Below are positions 1 to 17,963 of a stretch of DNA of 35,177 nucleotides, piece after piece. The notes under the pieces were generated by a model. It did not search any database, was not told where the DNA came from, and worked only from the letters and a program-made list of their open reading frames with translations. A program made the translations under genes and the position numbers. The stretch is taken from positions 1 through 35,177 of the forward strand of contig KZ836127.1 of the NCBI GenBank assembly GCA_003265685.1, in the 5' to 3' direction. The first letter of the stretch is position 1; each line of letters starts with the position of its first letter. The stretch is from Piscinibacter caeni (GTDB taxonomy: Bacteria > Pseudomonadota > Gammaproteobacteria > Burkholderiales > Burkholderiaceae_C).

Positions 1-470
1 GCCGGGCGCACGCAGTGCAGGATCATGCCGCGGATGCGCCGCTCGGCCGGGTGGTAGTAGCCGTCGGTGTGCCACTGGATCGCCCGGTCGGTGTAGGGGA
101 TGTAGGCGCCGGCCGGGCCGGCCCCGGCGCGCACCGTGATCGGCGAGATGCCGTCCTCGTCGGCCAGCCAGTTGGCGTCCAGCCGCTCGAGGCCGAGCTG
201 GCGCCCGAGCGCGCGCGGGAGCGCCGCATCGGCCGGATCGGCCGGCCCGGGCGCTGCGCGGTAGACGGCCATGTTGAAGCGCGCGCAGCGCTCACGCAGC
301 GCCTGCCGTTCGCCCTCGGTCAGCGCGAACGGATCGCGCACCTCCACCATCAGCGCAGCGGCATCGCGCGGCGCGTCGGCCATCTTGGCCGCGCGCCAGG
401 CGCGGTAAGCCCGCTCGTCGTCAGGATCGAACGGGGCTTGTCGAAGCGGCGCCGCGGCGCAGGCCTGCAT
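1..470 (-). CDS. TauD/TfdA-like Fe(II)/2-oxoglutarate dioxygenase, partial (C-terminus beyond window start)
   Basis: The minus-strand reading frame opens with ATG at 470 and stays open to base 1, giving about 156 residues of an unfinished protein. Residues 132-141 read IQWHTDGYYH, the HxD iron-binding pair (His134, Asp136) of the TauD/TfdA and gamma-butyrobetaine dioxygenase fold; the distal His and the 2-oxoglutarate-binding Arg would lie outside the window. A GGAGAG ribosome site sits just upstream, and the gap to the previous gene is only 2 bases, so it is the last visible gene of the minus-strand operon that starts at 2273. The family oxidises small organic substrates such as taurine, which would suit an organosulfur compound here, but the substrate cannot be read from the sequence. 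The family call is fairly secure from the motif; the role is inference. Confidence 0.75.
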   Translation of the reverse strand, partial: MQACAAAPLRQAPFDPDDERAYRAWRAAKMADAPRDAAALMVEVRDPFALTEGERQALRERCARFNMAVYRAAPGPADPADAALPRALGRQLGLERLDANWLADEDGISPITVRAGAGPAGAYIPYTDRAIQWHTDGYYHPAERRIRGMILHCVRP

Positions 471-472
471 GG

Positions 473-1087
473 CTACTCTCCGCCCATCGTCTCGCGCCGC
501 GCGCGCCGCGGCTCGCTGGAGAACACGCCGTCCATGGCCCGCTGCAGCAGGCCGACGGCCTCGGGCACCTCGGCGGCCATCACCTGGTCGAGCACCCAGC
601 GCCGGTCCTTCTCGGGCACCAGCGCCTCGAGGCGGTGGCCGAGATAGCGCGTGAAGGCGAAGTCCGGCCCATCGCGCTCGCCCCAGCCGAACTCGGCGTA
701 GTGCCCCGAGAGCACGTTGAACTGCTCGACGAAGCGATCGGCGTAGCTCGCGCCGCCGGCCAGCGGGCCGAGCAGGTCGGACTCGTTCTCGTCGAGGATC
801 TCCGAGGCACGCAGCACCATCGCGGTGGTGAAGGGCGTGCGGCCTTCCGCGCCCAGCCGCGCATGGGCGATGCGGTCGGCCCCAGCGAGCAGGAACACGA
901 GCAGCTCGCGCAGCACGCCGAAGTAGGCTGCGCCCGCGTCGATGTCGAAGCCCGCCTCGCGCAGCCGCCTGATGGCATGCGTGGCCACGCGCCAGGCGAT
1001 GAACGCGATCGCGCTGCCGGTCTGCGCCGGGTTCTTGGCCTGTTCGGGCTTGAACCAGTGGGCCTTCAGGCGTGGGGGCGTGGCCAT
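473..1087 (-). CDS. Uncharacterised 204-aa helical protein of the dsr-divergent operon
   Basis: This 204-residue protein begins MATPPRLKAHWF. An in-frame extension to 1198 exists, but it would overlap the DsrC-like gene by about 100 bases and has low-complexity composition, so the ATG at 1087 is preferred; it lies 8 bases after the preceding stop. The sequence is rich in Ala, Leu, Glu and Arg and looks all-helical and soluble, with no signal peptide, membrane segment or cysteine pair. Its C-terminal tail is strongly charged (SSEPRRARRETMGGE). I do not recognise a family. Its place between a DsrC-like protein and a dioxygenase in a tight operon suggests a part in the same sulfur-linked pathway. 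It is almost certainly a real gene because of the operon packing and consistent GC-rich third positions. Confidence 0.7.
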   Translation of the reverse strand: MATPPRLKAHWFKPEQAKNPAQTGSAIAFIAWRVATHAIRRLREAGFDIDAGAAYFGVLRELLVFLLAGADRIAHARLGAEGRTPFTTAMVLRASEILDENESDLLGPLAGGASYADRFVEQFNVLSGHYAEFGWGERDGPDFAFTRYLGHRLEALVPEKDRRWVLDQVMAAEVPEAVGLLQRAMDGVFSSEPRRARRETMGGE

Positions 1088-1095
1088 CGTTCTGC

Positions 1096-1425
1096 TCAGT
1101 ACCCGCCTTTGCCCAGCGGCTGCGGCAGGCCGGCCACCTTGGCCGCCTGCTTGGCCGGGCCGAGCGGGAACAGGTCGTAGAGCGACTTGCTGTCGCAACC
1201 GGGCAGGACGTCCGCCAGGCCCTTGAGCATGTTGCGGAAGTTGGGCGTGTGGCCGTGCTCGCGGTACTCGTCGCGCAGGTAGTGGATGACCTTCCAGTGC
1301 GCGTCGCTCAGCGTGAGGTTCTCGGCGGCGGCAATCACCGGCACCACCTCGTCGCTGAAGTCCGCCTCCAGCAGGTAACCCTGCTCGTCGGTCTCGAGTT
1401 CGCGGCCGTCGACGGTGTAGCTCAT
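1096..1425 (-). CDS. DsrC/TusE-family paralogue lacking the C-terminal cysteines (RspA-like)
   Basis: The 109-residue protein is full length for the DsrC/TusE/RspA family and aligns end to end with the dsrC product in this window: DxxGYL near the N-terminus, a central HWKVIHYLRDEY helix, and LFPLGPAKQAAKVAGLP near the C-terminus. DsrC works as a persulfide or trisulfide carrier through two cysteines in its C-terminal arm. Here the first is Ala95 and the second falls at Lys106 in the tail LGKGGY, so it cannot carry sulfur in that way. Its single Cys lies in a loop (LPGCDSK). Family members without these cysteines have been called RspA (regulatory sulfur-related protein). An AGGAGAG ribosome site precedes ATG 1425, and the Cas6-like gene ends 19 bases upstream. 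A regulatory or scaffold role is inference. Confidence 0.88.
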   Translation of the reverse strand: MSYTVDGRELETDEQGYLLEADFSDEVVPVIAAAENLTLSDAHWKVIHYLRDEYREHGHTPNFRNMLKGLADVLPGCDSKSLYDLFPLGPAKQAAKVAGLPQPLGKGGY

Positions 1426-1444
1426 CCCTTCGTCTCTCCTGTGG

Positions 1445-2056
1445 TCATTCGATCTCGCCCACCGCCGCGGCCGACTTGTGCGGCACGAACACGCCGCAGC
1501 CCATCAGGCGGTGCGCGCCCAGGCCATGTTCGAGCACGCGCAGCGCTGCCGCCTCGCGCAGGCCATGCAGCATCAGGCTGTAGCCCTGCAGCGTGTGATC
1601 GGGCCCGCGCAGACGCTGTGCACGGCCGCAGACCCGCTGGCAGCGCACCTCCAGCCGCGCCAGCTCGTCGCCCATGGCGGCCAGGAAGCCCACTTCGTCA
1701 GCCGCGCCGGCGTCCACGAAGTGGGCGTACAGCGTCGTGTGCGGCAACAGCTCGCGCTGCTGCGGCGTACCGAGATGCACCGCGCAGCCGGCCACGTCCA
1801 GCGTGCGGCCGGCCAGCGCCTGCGCCGCGTCGGCCGCGCCGCGCGCCACGCGCAGCACCAGCCGCGCACGCGCCGACAGCAGCGCCGGCTCGCCCGTGCC
1901 GGGCACCAGCCGGACGGGATGCACCGCGGCCAGCGGATCGTCGGCGAGCCCCGGCAGCGCCTCGGTGAGCGCCTGCGCGAGCGCCCAGCGGTGGTCGCGC
2001 GGCAGCGTGCGGCCGTGCAGCGGGAACACGAGGTCGACCATGGCCGCGTCCGTCAC
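1445..2056 (-). CDS. Cas6/RAMP-like protein (type I-MYXAN Cas6/Cmx6-like), no CRISPR array nearby
   Basis: The predicted protein has 203 residues from a GTG at 2056, chosen because AGGGAG lies 9 bases upstream and the GTG abuts the stop of the previous gene; the ATG at 2041 is an alternative. The N-terminus (VDLVFPLHGRTLPRDHRWAL) and the glycine-rich C-terminal segment HRLMGCGVFVPHKSA resemble Cas6-type RAMP proteins, in particular the Cmx6 group as I recall it. Cas6 proteins are two ferredoxin-like folds that bind and usually cut CRISPR repeat RNA. No repeats, spacers or other cas genes are present here. It sits in an operon with a DsrC-like protein beside dsr, so an RNA-related or wholly different job is more likely. 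The family resemblance is moderately secure; function is unknown. Confidence 0.68.
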   Translation of the reverse strand: MTDAAMVDLVFPLHGRTLPRDHRWALAQALTEALPGLADDPLAAVHPVRLVPGTGEPALLSARARLVLRVARGAADAAQALAGRTLDVAGCAVHLGTPQQRELLPHTTLYAHFVDAGAADEVGFLAAMGDELARLEVRCQRVCGRAQRLRGPDHTLQGYSLMLHGLREAAALRVLEHGLGAHRLMGCGVFVPHKSAAAVGEIE

Positions 2057-2057
2057 C

Positions 2058-2273
2058 TCAGCCGACTCCCTGCGAACGCGCCCAGCGCAGCAGCGCCTCG
2101 CCCCATTCGGCGGCGGTCTGCGCATCGACCTCGAACACCGTGAAGCGGCTCTTCTCGCGGATGCGCGTGCGCAGCAGGCTCATGCCGCCGGCGTCGTGGT
2201 CGAACTGCTGCAGCTCGATCTCCTGGCCGCCCAGGGGCACGCGCAGCTTCGCGAGCGGGGTCACGCGGGGCAT
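2058..2273 (-). CDS. Small conserved-looking 71-aa protein, first gene of the dsr-divergent operon
   Basis: This 71-residue soluble protein begins MPRVTPLAKLRVPLGGQEIE, has a core reading GGMSLLRTRIREKSRFTVFE, and ends in an amphipathic helix (AAEWGEALLRWARSQ). It has no cysteine and no signal peptide. The pattern of short beta-strands followed by a helix looks like a single alpha/beta domain. AGGAGAA precedes the ATG. Its TGA is followed after one base by the GTG of the Cas6-like gene, so the two are translationally linked. I do not recognise a named family. It is the promoter-proximal gene of the minus-strand operon and shares its upstream region with dsrA. Confidence 0.65.
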   Translation of the reverse strand: MPRVTPLAKLRVPLGGQEIELQQFDHDAGGMSLLRTRIREKSRFTVFEVDAQTAAEWGEALLRWARSQGVG

Positions 2274-2310: not shown

Positions 2311-2339
2311 TGGCGCAGCGTCTATCACCGCGTCGGGTA
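2311..2339 (-). promoter_or_regulatory. Promoter block of the minus-strand operon shared with the soe promoter
   Basis: Read on the minus strand from 2339, the sequence runs TACCCGACGCGGTG and then ATAGACGCTGC. Upstream of soeA, from 17867 on the plus strand, it runs TACCCGTCCCGGTA and then ATAGACGCTGC. Over these 25 bases 22 are identical, including an exact 11-base run outside the inverted repeat. In both cases the block lies downstream of a second operator 23-24 bp away and points toward the gene. The GATAGA/AATAGA part may be a -10-like element with no good -35, as expected of an activator-dependent promoter. Transcription would start about 40 bases before the ATG at 2273. Confidence 0.55.
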
Positions 2340-2363
2340 AGCGCCGGATAACCCTTTCGGGTA
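2326..2363. promoter_or_regulatory. Tandem TACC-N6-GGTA operator-like inverted repeats in the dsrA divergent promoter
   Basis: Two 14-base sites are seen, CACCGCGTCGGGTA at 2326-2339 and AACCCTTTCGGGTA at 2350-2363, centre to centre 24 bp. Each matches TACC-N6-GGTA at 7 of 8 fixed positions. Both half-sites carry the exact run TCGGGTA. The same pair arrangement, with perfect matches, occurs upstream of soeA. The sites lie between divergent genes, so they could act on dsrA (about 80-115 bp upstream of its ATG) and on the minus-strand operon. The TAC...GTA form recalls NarL/FixJ-family operators (NarL consensus TACYYMT, inverted), although the spacing here is shorter. The binding protein is inferred to be the NarL-type regulator at 15829-16527. 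Confidence 0.6.
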
Positions 2364-2441
2364 GTGCGTCGCACCCAACCGGAGTGATGGCGGGCGCCGG
2401 GAGCGCTCCCTAGGATGCTTTCACCCCAAGGAGACACGACC

Positions 2442-3737
2442 ATGGCCAAGAAGATGCACGAGACGCCGATGCTCGACGAGCTCGAGAGCGGACCCTGGCC
2501 CAGCTTCGTCACCGGCCTGAAGCGGCTGGCGAAGGAGAAGGACTACATGGTCGACCTGATGGGCCAGCTGGAGACCTCCTACCGCACCAAGAGGGGCTAC
2601 TGGAAGGGCGGCACGGTCGGCGTGTTCGGCTACGGCGGCGGCGTGATCCCGCGCTTCACCGAGCTGAAGGACGCGAACGACAAGCCGATGTTTCCCGACG
2701 CGGCCGAGTTCCACACCCTGCGCGTGCAGCCGCCGGCCGGCATGCACTACAACACCGAGGTGCTGCGCAAGATGTGCGACATCTGGGAGAAGCACGGCTC
2801 GGGCCTGATCGCCTTCCACGGCCAGAGCGGCGACATCATGTTCCAGGGCGCCAAGACCGACAAGGTGCAGGACGCCTTCGACGAGCTCAACGAGCTCGGC
2901 TTCGACCTCGGCGGCGCCGGCCCCGCGGTGCGCACCTCGATGAGCTGCGTCGGCGCGGCACGCTGCGAGCAGAGCTGCTACGACGAGGCCAAGGCGCACC
3001 GCCAGGTGATCAACACCTTCCTCGACGACATCCACCGCCCCGCCCTGCCCTACAAGTTCAAGTTCAAGTTCAGCGGCTGCCCGAACGACTGCATGAACTC
3101 GATCCAGCGCTCCGACATGGCCGTGATCGGCACCTGGCGCGACAACATGCGCAGCGACGAGGAACTGGCGCGCAAGTGGTTCGACGTGCACGGCATGAAC
3201 GAGCTGGTCAACAACGTGATCTCGCGTTGCCCGACCAAGACCATCATGCTCAAGGAGGTGAAGGACGTGGCCACCGGCCCGACCATCACCAGCGTGAAGA
3301 TCAGCGACAGCCACGCGCTCGAGATCGACAACAGCAACTGCGTGCGCTGCATGCACTGCATCAACGTGATGACCGGCGCGCTGGCGCACGGCACGGACAC
3401 CGGCGCGACCATCCTGATCGGCGGCAAGCGCACGCTGAAGATCGGCGACCTGATGGGCACCGTGGTCGTGCCCTTCCTGCCGCTGAAGACCGAGGAGGAC
3501 TACGAGGCCCTGGTCGAGCTCGGCCAGAAGGTGATCGACTTCTTCGCCGAGAACGCGCTCGAGCACGAGCGCACCGGCGAGATGATCGAGCGCATCGGCC
3601 TGGTGAACTTCCTCGAGGGCGTGGGCATCGACATCGACCCCAACATGGTCGCCACGCCCCGTACCAACCCCTATGTGCGCACCGACGGCTGGGACGACGA
3701 AGTCGCGCGCATCAACGCCAAGAAGGCCGCGGCCTGA
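2442..3737 (+). CDS. dsrA: Reverse dissimilatory sulfite reductase subunit alpha (DsrA)
   Basis: DsrA pairs with DsrB in the cytoplasmic alpha2-beta2 sirohaem enzyme that, in sulfur oxidisers, oxidises DsrC-bound sulfur to sulfite. The protein has 431 residues, usual for the family. The sirohaem/[4Fe-4S] region shows SCVGAARCEQSC (Cys169, Cys175) and SGCPNDC (Cys213, Cys217); the ferredoxin domain shows CVRCMHC (Cys300, 303, 306). The ATG at 2442 is chosen over an upstream in-frame start at 2415 because AAGGAGA sits 7 bases before it. dsrB follows after 10 bases. That it runs in the oxidative direction is inferred from the neighbouring dsrEFH and dsrL plus soe and sqr genes. Confidence 0.97.
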   Translation: MAKKMHETPMLDELESGPWPSFVTGLKRLAKEKDYMVDLMGQLETSYRTKRGYWKGGTVGVFGYGGGVIPRFTELKDANDKPMFPDAAEFHTLRVQPPAGMHYNTEVLRKMCDIWEKHGSGLIAFHGQSGDIMFQGAKTDKVQDAFDELNELGFDLGGAGPAVRTSMSCVGAARCEQSCYDEAKAHRQVINTFLDDIHRPALPYKFKFKFSGCPNDCMNSIQRSDMAVIGTWRDNMRSDEELARKWFDVHGMNELVNNVISRCPTKTIMLKEVKDVATGPTITSVKISDSHALEIDNSNCVRCMHCINVMTGALAHGTDTGATILIGGKRTLKIGDLMGTVVVPFLPLKTEEDYEALVELGQKVIDFFAENALEHERTGEMIERIGLVNFLEGVGIDIDPNMVATPRTNPYVRTDGWDDEVARINAKKAAA

Positions 3738-12830: not shown

Positions 12831-14272
12831 ACCCGGCGCTGCTCGTTTCCGCCGCCCACAAGAGCTCGGGCAAGACGACGCTGACGCTCGGCCTGGCCGC
12901 TGCGCTGGCCGCGCGTGGCGAGGTGGTGCAGCCGTACAAGAAGGGCCCGGACTACATCGACCCGATGTGGCTCACGCTCGCCGCCGGCCGCGCCTGCGTC
13001 AACCTCGACCCGCAGCTGATGGGCTGGGACGAGATCGCCGCCCTGTTCGCGCAGCGCCTGCGCGGCGCGACGCTCGGCCTGGTGGAGGGCAACAAGGGCC
13101 TGTACGACGGCCTGGCGCTGGACGGCAGCAACAGCAACGCGGCGCTCGCGGCGCGGCTCGGCCTGCCGGTGCTGCTGGTGCTCGACGCACGCGGCATGAC
13201 CCGCGGCATCGCCCCGCTGATCCTCGGCTACCAGGCCTTCGACCGCGACATCCGCATCGGCGGCGTGATCCTGAACCAGGTCGGCGGCAGCCGCCACGAG
13301 GCCAAGCTGCGCAGCGTGATCGAGCACTACACCGACGTGCCGGTGCTCGGCGCGGTGCCGCAGGACGAGGCGCTCGCGCTGCCTGAGCGCCACCTCGGCC
13401 TGATGCCCGAGCGCGAGCTGGGCGACGCCGCGCAGCGCGTTCGTGCGATGGGCGAGCGCATCGCCGGTTGTGTCGACCTGGCGCGGGTGCGCGACCTGGC
13501 CGCCTCGCGCCGCTACGAGGACGTGGCCGCGCCGGTTGCCGACGCCACGCTGCGCCCGGCCGCCGAGCCGCTGCGCATCGGCATCGCGCGCGACAAGGCC
13601 TTCGGCTTCTACTACCCCGACGACCTGGAGGCCCTGCAGGCCGAGGGCGCCGAGCTGGTGCCCTTCGACACGCTGGCCGACCGCCACCTGCCGCCGGCGC
13701 TGGACGGCCTGTTCATCGGCGGCGGCTTCCCCGAGCTGTTCATGGACGAGCTGGAGGCCAACGCGGCGCTGCGCGGCGCGCTGCAGCGCGCCATCGTCGA
13801 CGGGCTGCCGGTCTACGCCGAATGCGGCGGCCTGATGTACCTGGCGCGCTCGATCGACTGGAACGGACGCCGCGCGCAGATGGTCGGCGTGATCCCGGGC
13901 GACGTGGTGATGTGCAAGCGCCCGGTGGGGCGCGGCTACGTGCGCGTGGAGGAGACCGCCGAGTTTCCCTGGCAGAGCGAGCACGACGAGCCGATGCTGC
14001 GCCAGGGGCACGAGTTCCACCACTCGCGGCTCGAGAATCTCGATCCGTCGGTGAGCTTCGCCTACCGCGTGCAGCGCGGCCACGGCATCGACGGCTGGCA
14101 CGACGGCGTGCTGGTGCACCGCGTGCTGGCCAGCTACACCCACCTGCGCCACAGCGGCGGCACCGACTGGCCGCGCCGCTTCGTGGCCCACCTGCGGCGC
14201 CTGCGCGCCGAGGACCGTGCGGCCGAGGCGCCGCGCCAACGTGTCGGAGGAGCGGCATGGTCAACACCCTGA
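12827..14272 (+). CDS. dsrN: DsrN, sirohaem amidase (cobyrinate a,c-diamide synthase-like)
   Basis: DsrN resembles CobB/CbiA and is thought to amidate sirohaem to the sirohaem amide used by DsrAB. The 481-residue protein has an N-terminal ATP-binding P-loop-like segment (SAAHKSSGKTTLTLGLA), a central synthetase domain with EGNKGLYDGL, and a C-terminal class I glutamine amidotransferase domain whose nucleophile region reads VYAECGGLMYLA, with a later candidate His in HEFHHSRLEN. It starts within the dsrP stop (ATGA) and its last 16 bases overlap the next gene. Function is known from family and context. Confidence 0.93.
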   Translation: MNPALLVSAAHKSSGKTTLTLGLAAALAARGEVVQPYKKGPDYIDPMWLTLAAGRACVNLDPQLMGWDEIAALFAQRLRGATLGLVEGNKGLYDGLALDGSNSNAALAARLGLPVLLVLDARGMTRGIAPLILGYQAFDRDIRIGGVILNQVGGSRHEAKLRSVIEHYTDVPVLGAVPQDEALALPERHLGLMPERELGDAAQRVRAMGERIAGCVDLARVRDLAASRRYEDVAAPVADATLRPAAEPLRIGIARDKAFGFYYPDDLEALQAEGAELVPFDTLADRHLPPALDGLFIGGGFPELFMDELEANAALRGALQRAIVDGLPVYAECGGLMYLARSIDWNGRRAQMVGVIPGDVVMCKRPVGRGYVRVEETAEFPWQSEHDEPMLRQGHEFHHSRLENLDPSVSFAYRVQRGHGIDGWHDGVLVHRVLASYTHLRHSGGTDWPRRFVAHLRRLRAEDRAAEAPRQRVGGAAWSTP

Positions 14273-14610
14273 ATGACACCGTGCGCGTCGGCGACCGCCT
14301 GATCAACGTCGATTCGGAAGGTTACCTGCGCCACCTCGGCGACTGGTCGGAGGACTTCGCCCGCGCGCTCGCCGAGCGCGAGGGCCTGGTGCTGACCGAG
14401 GCGCACTGGGAGCTGATCCGCTTCCTGCGCGCGTACTGGGCCGAGCACGGCGTGCAGCCGCAGGTGCGCGTGATGATCCGCCACTTCAGCGAGCGCTGGG
14501 GCGCCGAGCGCGGCAGCAACCACCACCTGCACGAGATGTTCCCGCGCGGCGGGCCGCAGAAGCAGGGCAACCGCCTGGCCGGCCTGCTGCGCACCAAGGG
14601 CGAACACTGA
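14257..14610 (+). CDS. Cysteine-free DsrC/TusE-family paralogue (RspA-like) between dsrN and dsrR
   Basis: The 117-residue protein aligns with DsrC along its length: [20 protein letters not shown] near the N-terminus, a central [17 protein letters not shown] helix, and [19 protein letters not shown] where DsrC has its cysteine arm. It contains no cysteine at all, so it cannot act as a sulfur carrier and fits the RspA type. CGGAGGAG lies 4-5 bases before the ATG, which is inside the end of dsrN (16-base overlap, different frame). It differs clearly from the other cysteine-poor copy at 1096-1425, so they are not a recent duplication. Possible roles are competing with DsrC for DsrAB or DsrK, or regulation; this is inference. 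Confidence 0.9.
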
Positions 14611-17843: not shown

Positions 17844-17880
17844 TACCCAGATGGGTAGGTGGTCATTACCCGTCCCGGTA
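17844..17880. promoter_or_regulatory. Tandem TACC-N6-GGTA inverted repeats upstream of soeA
   Basis: Two perfect sites are seen. TACCCAGATGGGTA (17844-17857) is a perfect 5-bp inverted repeat around 4 bases. TACCCGTCCCGGTA (17867-17880) extends to ATTACC-N6-GGTAAT (17865-17882). Centres are 23 bp apart, about two helical turns, so a tandem pair of dimers would bind one face of the DNA. The second site runs straight into ATAGACGCTGC, shared with the minus-strand promoter near dsrA. The repeats lie 84-120 bases upstream of the soeA ATG chosen here and between two divergent transcription units. The regulator is inferred to be the adjacent NarL-type protein. Confidence 0.72.
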
Positions 17881-17963
17881 ATAGACGCTGCCGGGGCGGC
17901 CTGCGCCTAATGAAGTCGCTGTCCGGACCGGGTGAATCCGGTGGGCCGCACGACGCCTCCACG

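Follow-up and report, generated by a model that had tools for sequence, protein, structure and literature searches.

A divergent operon beside dsrA

The reverse Dsr (rDsr) pathway serves as the reference for how purple sulfur bacteria, vent symbionts and many chemolithotrophs oxidise stored sulfur; its regulation and sulfur hand-over are only partly understood. Here we describe a five-gene operon that shares its upstream region with dsrA in Piscinibacter caeni, at the start of a stretch of 35,177 bases (positions 1-35177 of the 35,769-base contig KZ836127.1; hereafter the window). The dsrA gene lies on the plus strand (2415..3737; TIGR02064, 519.4 bits; start probably at 2442, judged by eye), and the operon diverges from it on the minus strand. 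Its first gene (2058..2273) encodes a DUF6967 protein of 71 amino acids (aa; PF22295, E 1.8e-29), and its second (1445..2041) a 198-aa protein of the Cas6/Cmx6 family (PF09559, E 5.2e-56; TIGR02807 cas6_cmx6, 141.2 bits against a cut-off of 98.85). There follow a 109-aa DsrC paralogue that ends in KGGY and is without tail cysteines (1096..1425; PF04358, E 4e-32; TIGR03342, 96 bits against a cut-off of 53.5), a 204-aa helical protein without Pfam or NCBIfam match (473..1087; P0004 family), and the first 156 aa of a TauD-like oxygenase dependent on Fe(II) and 2-oxoglutarate (2OG), which carries an HTD motif and is cut by the contig start (3..470). By the window's gene calls, the intergenic gaps are 16, 19, 8 and 2 bases in gene order; the five tightly packed genes sharing the dsrA upstream region that a sequence-only reading of the window had described are thus present.

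Two features lie between the operon and dsrA. The first is a promoter motif (2315..2340, minus strand) that recurs before a soe-type molybdoenzyme gene (17866..17891, plus strand) and, less exactly, before tusA-dsrE2; the second is an operator-like palindrome, TAACCC-TTTC-GGGTA (2349..2363, no strand), with three mismatches to the TATCCC/GGGATA form that we searched for in relatives.

Association with dsrA

The Cas6-family gene tracks dsrA nearly one-to-one. We searched 274 genomes drawn evenly from the window's class for both genes, and 250 genomes from its order, counting dsrA as present in either sample at a TIGR02064 E value of at most 1e-30. In the class sample, PF09559 was found in 91 genomes and dsrA in 94 (87 of which pass the curated cut-off); 87 genomes have both, four Cas6 only, seven dsrA only and 176 neither (Fisher 2e-57, relatedness ignored). 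The order sample is tighter still: Cas6 occurs in 46 genomes and dsrA in 51 (49 pass the cut-off), with 46 genomes having both, none Cas6 only, five dsrA only and 199 neither (Fisher 5e-45). In a phylum sample of 398 genomes, Cas6 was found in five, every one from the window's order, and in 14 control genomes it was found in none. A scan of GTDB contigs confirmed at least 579 related stretches, and the best 80, which were kept, include Thiohalobacter thiocyanaticus and Leucothrix pacifica.

What of the genomes that depart from this rule? In the four with Cas6 only (G067, G093, G127 and G186), the oxygenase gene is close to the point where the stretch ends and dsrA should follow, so the absence of dsrA may be an assembly gap. 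Among the 12 genomes with dsrA only, five DsrC-family loci were inspected, of which four encode a KGGY tail (G207, G211, G110 and G852) and one KAGY (G079); in another, G123, the operon reaches the contig end after TauD and two further recurrent families, c7 and c12.

Gene order is also conserved. We compared three sets of loci: 81 from the class sample (80 of the 91 fetched, plus the window, many of them truncated by contig ends), 80 from named records, and 45 from the order (44 of its 46 Cas6 loci, G744 and G833 being left out, plus the congener G506). Among the class-sample loci, DsrC-family genes were found in 73, TauD in 61, dsrA/B in 60 and the 204-aa family in 28; clustering placed dsrA upstream of Cas6 and on the opposite strand in 60 of 60, and all 63 TauD-family open reading frames on the same strand as Cas6, with 61 lying upstream of it. 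Three of these loci (L053, L075 and L077) have Cas6 without any recurrent neighbour. The named-record loci contain c7 (75), DsrC-family genes (70), TauD (66), dsrA/B (61), c12 (39), c11 (36) and the 204-aa family (18), and the order loci dsrA/B (45), DsrC-family genes (45), the 204-aa family (44), DUF6967 (40) and TauD (35).

Two arrangements predominate. Outside the window's order the commonest is dsrA, divergent from TauD, c7, sometimes c12, Cas6, the DsrC paralogue and c11; one representative each of c7, c11 and c12 gave no Pfam match above cut-off. Within the order it is DUF6967, Cas6, the DsrC paralogue, in some loci a sulfurtransferase, the helical protein and TauD, an arrangement followed by the genes present in all 45 loci except L256. 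Two genomes from a single genus (L206 and L263) have DUF6967 and Cas6 joined in one open frame. Homology between DUF6967 and c7 was considered and is unsupported (hhalign probability 0.9%). Across 43 loci, Cas6 distances correlate with those of TauD (Spearman 0.54), c7 (0.54) and dsrA (0.47).

The sequence-only reading would have been set aside had the genes failed to co-occur beyond close relatives; what we find is an association with dsrA in two samples and conserved synteny in three locus sets. The module is real and widespread in reverse-Dsr bacteria. Co-occurrence, synteny and a common promoter support the proposal that it is an accessory module, as yet uncharacterised, of sulfur oxidation, and its link to sulfur oxidation is strong.

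Other genes recur near these loci. Among the 81 class-sample loci, a PKHD-type Fe(II)/2OG oxygenase family (c9) lies near 39 and a 2OG-FeII_Oxy_3 family (c15) near 22, and DUF6866 (c14) often adjoins the 204-aa family.

A DsrC paralogue with an altered tail

The DsrC-family protein of the operon has the tail GLPQPLGKGGY, against GLPKPTGCV at the end of the DsrC encoded in the window; the operon protein contains one cysteine, which lies outside the tail, and both the penultimate and the second tail cysteine are absent. We call it the DsrC mimic. The same division holds in an alignment of 63 DsrC-family proteins encoded on the Cas6 strand with 25 from the dsr side: the former typically end GLPESRRKGGY or GLPQSTRKGGY where DsrC reads GLPKPTGCV. 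The exceptions among the 63 rows are L064 and L065, which end GCS and have a further copy at the locus, and the truncated L088; among the 25, L048 is itself of the KGGY type and lies on the other strand. Of 123 DsrC-family open reading frames in the class sample, 65 end in KGGY, 53 in GCx and five otherwise. In the order set, a single K(G/A)GY protein is encoded on the Cas6 strand at each of the 45 loci (44 KGGY, one KAGY).

How complete is the loss of the carrier cysteines? The penultimate cysteine is replaced in all 45 mimics of the window's order. The second tail cysteine is found in none of the 65 class-sample KGGY proteins, four of which have a cysteine elsewhere in the tail, and no tail cysteine was found in 70 KGGY proteins of the named records. 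The earlier description of a DsrC without carrier cysteines therefore holds for the window; it does not extend to five of the 45 order relatives, which have a cysteine at the second tail position. The mimic is probably of the cysteine-less DsrC class, with a proposed regulatory role, that Venceslau et al. in 2014 reportedly named RspA.

Variants of the family occur in other settings. In one subgroup (L048, L146, L152, L158, L162, L177, L185 and L195) the KGGY gene is inverted and lies downstream of c11, with a tail ending ARKGGY. In the window itself, the C-terminal part of 13387-14607 (plus strand) encodes a further DsrC-family protein without tail cysteine, downstream of dsrC. A viral set yielded 13 loci with a DsrC relative, and of the 12 tails compared (L233 excluded) one, L232, is KGGY; this record (IMGVR_UViG_3300005649_000011), filed as viral, holds either a copy carried by a phage or a bacterial contig filed in error.

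Sulfurtransferase genes in related operons

Relatives of the operon include sulfurtransferase genes, a new observation that lay beyond the reach of the sequence-only reading. Among the 45 order loci, a rhodanese-type protein directly follows the mimic in 26 and a tandem TusA lies between the mimic and the 204-aa gene in 12; one or the other is present in 37, and one locus has both. The best NCBIfam match of the rhodanese is 3-mercaptopyruvate sulfurtransferase, at 147 bits, under the model cut-off of 250. Rhodanese was also found in four of the 81 class-sample and 13 of the 80 named-record loci, and every copy found is on the Cas6 strand, no more than 2.5 kb from Cas6. These genes, together with the promoter motif before tusA-dsrE2 described below, are our main reason for placing the module in sulfur transfer.

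TusA also appears in loci with dsrA where no Cas6 was found. In G726 and G772 it is flanked by DUF6967 and the 204-aa gene, accompanied in G772 by a DsrC relative with one tail cysteine, and in G852 the order is DUF6967, the 204-aa gene, TauD, then TusA and DsrE2. The idea that TusA replaces Cas6 was dropped, because tandem TusA also stands beside Cas6 in the 12 loci above.

The altered tail of the mimic and the strict tie to dsrA would also suit a role in DsrAB maturation, in which the mimic would plug the DsrAB channel during building, the Cas6-like, DUF6967 and helical proteins would be its chaperones, and the oxygenase would carry out a modification. No homology to a known assembly factor was seen, however, and the operon sulfurtransferases better suit a relay; we consider maturation quite improbable.

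A common promoter motif and a palindrome

The upstream regions of the operon and of the molybdopterin oxidoreductase gene are identical at 35 of 45 bases, so the near-identity of the operon and soe promoters claimed earlier is borne out. The gene had been called soe; NCBIfam shows molybdoenzymes, with no match over cut-off. A pattern written from the two sites, which therefore matches both perfectly by construction, has no exact match elsewhere in the 6.87-Mb genome, nor does a reversed control. Allowing three mismatches reveals one further site in the window's genome (G000:C89:16249-16274), and the congener G506 has the operon site with two mismatches and one more site with three (G506:C1:1913469-1913494). 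In both genomes this further site precedes tusA-dsrE2, identified in G506 by Pfam TusA and DrsE_2 and in the window's genome matched by eye. The common layout before soe and tusA-dsrE2 suggests that the genus may have a small sulfur regulon.

Beyond the genus, the divergent region is marked by a palindrome. TATCCC-N3..5-GGGATA occurs exactly in 12 of 58 dsrA-TauD regions of the named-record set, in 34 with at most one mismatch and in 48 with at most two; 511 kb of flanking sequence from the same loci contain three sites at up to one mismatch and 36 at up to two, and a control with the halves reversed scores in two and eight of the 58 regions, respectively. When 17 genomes were searched whole, seven had the exact palindrome, always at the dsrA-operon region, with two further sites in all. 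Away from dsr, exact palindromes were seen by eye upstream of a gene for a predicted outer-membrane-like protein (G080:C1:1761001) and between parB-like and ATP-synthase-region genes (G034:C1:498560). In the order set, of five half-site pairs tried only those containing TACCC/GGGTA were enriched: with one over-long region excluded, TACCC-N3..5-GGGTA occurs exactly in 16 of 44 regions and nowhere else in 546 kb, and with at most one mismatch in 36 of 44 regions, which hold 49 of the 62 sites. The palindrome is concentrated between dsrA and the module, so a single regulator probably governs both dsr and the module.

Could the mimic itself be that regulator? It might bind the palindrome and repress or activate both dsr and the operon. 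The concentration of the palindrome in the divergent region is in keeping with this, as is its presence at three loci without Cas6 (exact in L308, with one mismatch in L309 and L313), and A. vinosum DsrC is said, in the passages available to us, to bind DNA upstream of dsr (PMC5944118). Against it, G726 has the palindrome and no KGGY mimic beside dsrA in the fetched stretch (a second DsrC-family match elsewhere was not inspected). No typical transcription factor was identified among the recurrent neighbours, and the regulator may lie elsewhere. Taking both sides together, we think transcriptional control by the mimic unlikely.

The Cas6-like protein and CRISPR

A profile of 27 Cas6-like members matches PDB 8fcj_B, a type I-B Cas6, with an E value of 4.8e-26, and the TIGR02807 match lies above cut-off, so one might ask whether the gene is a CRISPR-Cas remnant or a working CRISPR processing gene. 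The rest of the evidence speaks against both. A simple exact-repeat script found no array-like repeats in 165 loci, and of 80 Cas6-bearing genomes tested, out of 95 known, 40 have no Cas1; the genome of the window and that of the congener G506, a single contig, belong to these 40. The scan of neighbours of the Cas6-like gene covered part of the cas families. A plasmid search for relatives returned three records, each a cyanobacterial Cmx6 that is about 30% identical to the window protein and adjoins cas3 and cmx8 or cas8a1. Array-free loci, Cas1-free genomes and the contrast with these three CRISPR-linked proteins rule out a CRISPR function in our view, and the chance that one will yet emerge is close to negligible. 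A search for viral copies gave 113 pattern matches, none of which was confirmed.

A role in RNA biology is a separate matter. The Cas6-like protein, as an RNase or RNA binder, might process or repress dsr or other transcripts, with the mimic signalling the sulfur state. Homology to a solved Cas6 favours such post-transcriptional control, as does the conservation of an N-terminal histidine (30 of 31 dsr-type and three of three CRISPR-linked proteins) and of the loop glycines (31 of 31 dsr-type); with the histidine and the Gly-rich loop kept, the protein may still have an RNA role. The dsr-type proteins have, in addition, a conserved C-terminal HK (28 of 31 and 30 of 31, respectively), and most members outside the window's order have an inserted GNGWxRP motif. 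On the other side, the dsr-type protein is mostly acidic, with a median net charge of -5; its median isoelectric point (pI) is 5.9 over 81 loci and 7.0 in five members of the window's order, against 9.4 in the three CRISPR-linked Cmx6. This overall charge argues against cleavage of repeat RNA by the protein. Moreover, some rDsr genomes have other genes of the module without Cas6, and the operon gaps hold no consistent stable hairpin (the means of the six gap types range from z -0.74 to z +0.36, and 17 of the 153 gaps lie under -2, the single strong cases resembling local inverted repeats). A conserved hairpin in these gaps as the Cas6 target was accordingly rejected and is counted among the results against. 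We judge post-transcriptional control unlikely to be the answer, and the RNA or tRNA thio-modification control suggested by the sequence-only reading is so far unsupported, given the mostly acidic Cas6 and the want of a consistent hairpin.

The oxygenase and the helical protein

The truncated oxygenase of the window matches TauD (PF02668) weakly, at 16.8 bits against a cut-off of 27, and three full-length relatives pass with 69-84.5 bits. HTD is invariant in 38 aligned rows and the distal H276 is kept in at least 90% of them; the window copy ends before the distal histidine. A model of the Thiohalobacter thiocyanaticus protein (predicted local distance difference test, pLDDT, 92.5) has BBOX1 and TmpA as its nearest solved folds (3o2g, E 6.4e-14; 6npb, E 6.9e-14). 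The 204-aa protein is predicted to be helical (pLDDT 85.9), and a search with its fold found no convincing PDB relative (best match E 0.25).

Organosulfur oxidation feeding sulfite into Soe had been offered as one function for the module, with the TauD-like enzyme freeing the sulfite. Membership of the TauD/TfdA superfamily, the HTD motif and the promoter common to soe are what such catabolism would predict. Yet 10 of the 45 order loci retain Cas6 and the mimic with no oxygenase seen (at least two of those stretches are short), the nearest solved relatives of the enzyme are the gamma-butyrobetaine and TmpA hydroxylases, and the other operon genes would be left without an explanation. The claim is weak, and we hold this function to be very improbable.

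A proposed role in sulfur transfer

If the module is neither a CRISPR system nor a catabolic unit, what might it do? We give close to an even chance to the reading that the operon is a dedicated rDsr accessory module, which would handle or gate sulfane sulfur on protein carriers. The biochemical mechanism that we infer for it has four parts. The mimic would dock at DsrC sites, on DsrEFH, DsrAB or DsrMKJOP, where it would block, report or hand over. The Cas6-like protein would be an exaptation from a family of CRISPR-type RNA processors and, with DUF6967 and the helical protein, would bind the mimic. The Fe(II)/2OG oxygenase would add an oxygen- and 2OG-dependent modification to a partner or to a small carrier molecule, and a common regulator at the palindrome would drive the operon and dsr together. 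In its widest form the proposal is that energy metabolism has domesticated a CRISPR RNA-processing protein. Cas6 and the DsrC mimic may form a complex which, with a rhodanese or TusA donor in many lineages and an O2-dependent oxygenase, would serve as an unrecognised relay or checkpoint of reverse Dsr in most gamma- and betaproteobacterial sulfur oxidisers. This wider claim we advance tentatively, as a possibility that falls short of even.

Several observations weigh against the accessory-module reading. Three dsr loci with other module genes, those of G726, G772 and G852, have no Cas6 that we could find, and because such loci exist Cas6 is not essential to rDsr. The sulfurtransferases are unevenly spread: rhodanese occurs in only 17 of the 161 loci outside the window's order, a TusA-like open reading frame in none of these class-sample and named-record loci, eight of the 45 order loci have neither, and in the window and G506 the sulfurtransferase slot is empty (gaps of 26 and 27 bp in the slot comparison). 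Five of the 45 order mimics (L206, L253, L263, L271 and L272) retain the second tail cysteine, so that the mimics are not all certainly dead as carriers. Over the 43 loci, mimic distances follow those of Cas6 (Spearman 0.20), TauD (0.18), c7 (0.11) and dsrA (0.27) only loosely, and the values for TauD and c7 lie within the permutation range. The dsr-type Cas6 retains the histidine and Gly-rich loop of the Cas6 fold, and its pI exceeds 8 in eight of 81 cases. Finally, both palindromes were chosen after inspection of such regions.

What would follow from such a module? Many sulfur oxidisers carry a conserved operon of Cas6 and a disarmed DsrC, and so a well-studied pathway probably has further parts. 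A five-to-seven-gene module almost as constant as dsrA in two samples makes questions of regulation and hand-over testable by deletion. If the reading is right, it would offer a case of Cas6 exapted for metabolism. The module also cautions against taking cas6 in the annotation of a sulfur oxidiser as a sure sign of CRISPR.

Relation to published work and known systems

In the open PubMed Central (PMC) texts searched we found no discussion of the operon and no function assigned to it. The adjacency of Cas6 and dsr is already in print without comment: cas6 is among the genes drawn on dsr maps of mangrove metagenome-assembled genomes, in a figure legend that is the sole mention of cas6 in the text available from that paper (PMC10989796). 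Elsewhere, the cas6 passages concern CRISPR systems (PMC5728499, PMC8889020 and PMC7540712) or form part of a gene list (PMC10952691). Unusual DsrC proteins are noted in the passages available: extra DsrC-like genes in Thiodictyon, one of them (THSYN_22565) numbered near dsr (PMC5944118); dsrC homologues without the two cysteines in the Solemya symbiont (PMC4287430); and DsrC1 and DsrC2 beside DsrA2B2 in a Thiohalobacter genome (PMC6504805). The operon goes unmentioned in the passages seen of PMC4164917, PMC3397948, PMC11406059, PMC10504309, PMC3150331 and PMC6382920.

How, then, does the module compare with known systems? With respect to the rDsr cluster dsrABEFHCMKLJOPNRS, it is a divergent neighbour with a common intergenic region, and its genes stand outside the named dsr set as given in the passages available. 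The mimic shares family and similar length with the DsrC/TusE sulfur carriers (TIGR03342), and differs in its replaced penultimate cysteine and its K(G/A)GY end. The oxygenase resembles gamma-butyrobetaine hydroxylase and TmpA in fold and in sequence profile (TmpA, 4.4e-7), whereas it is shorter (about 310 aa against about 380) and only 17-20% identical. Lastly, the Cas6-like protein is homologous over its whole length to the Cas6/Cmx6 of type I-MYXAN CRISPR-Cas, with which it shares the Gly-rich loop, the conserved N-terminal histidine and a solved relative, 8fcj; the dsr type is set apart by loci without an array, genomes of which half of those tested are without Cas1, a mostly acidic character and the C-terminal HK.

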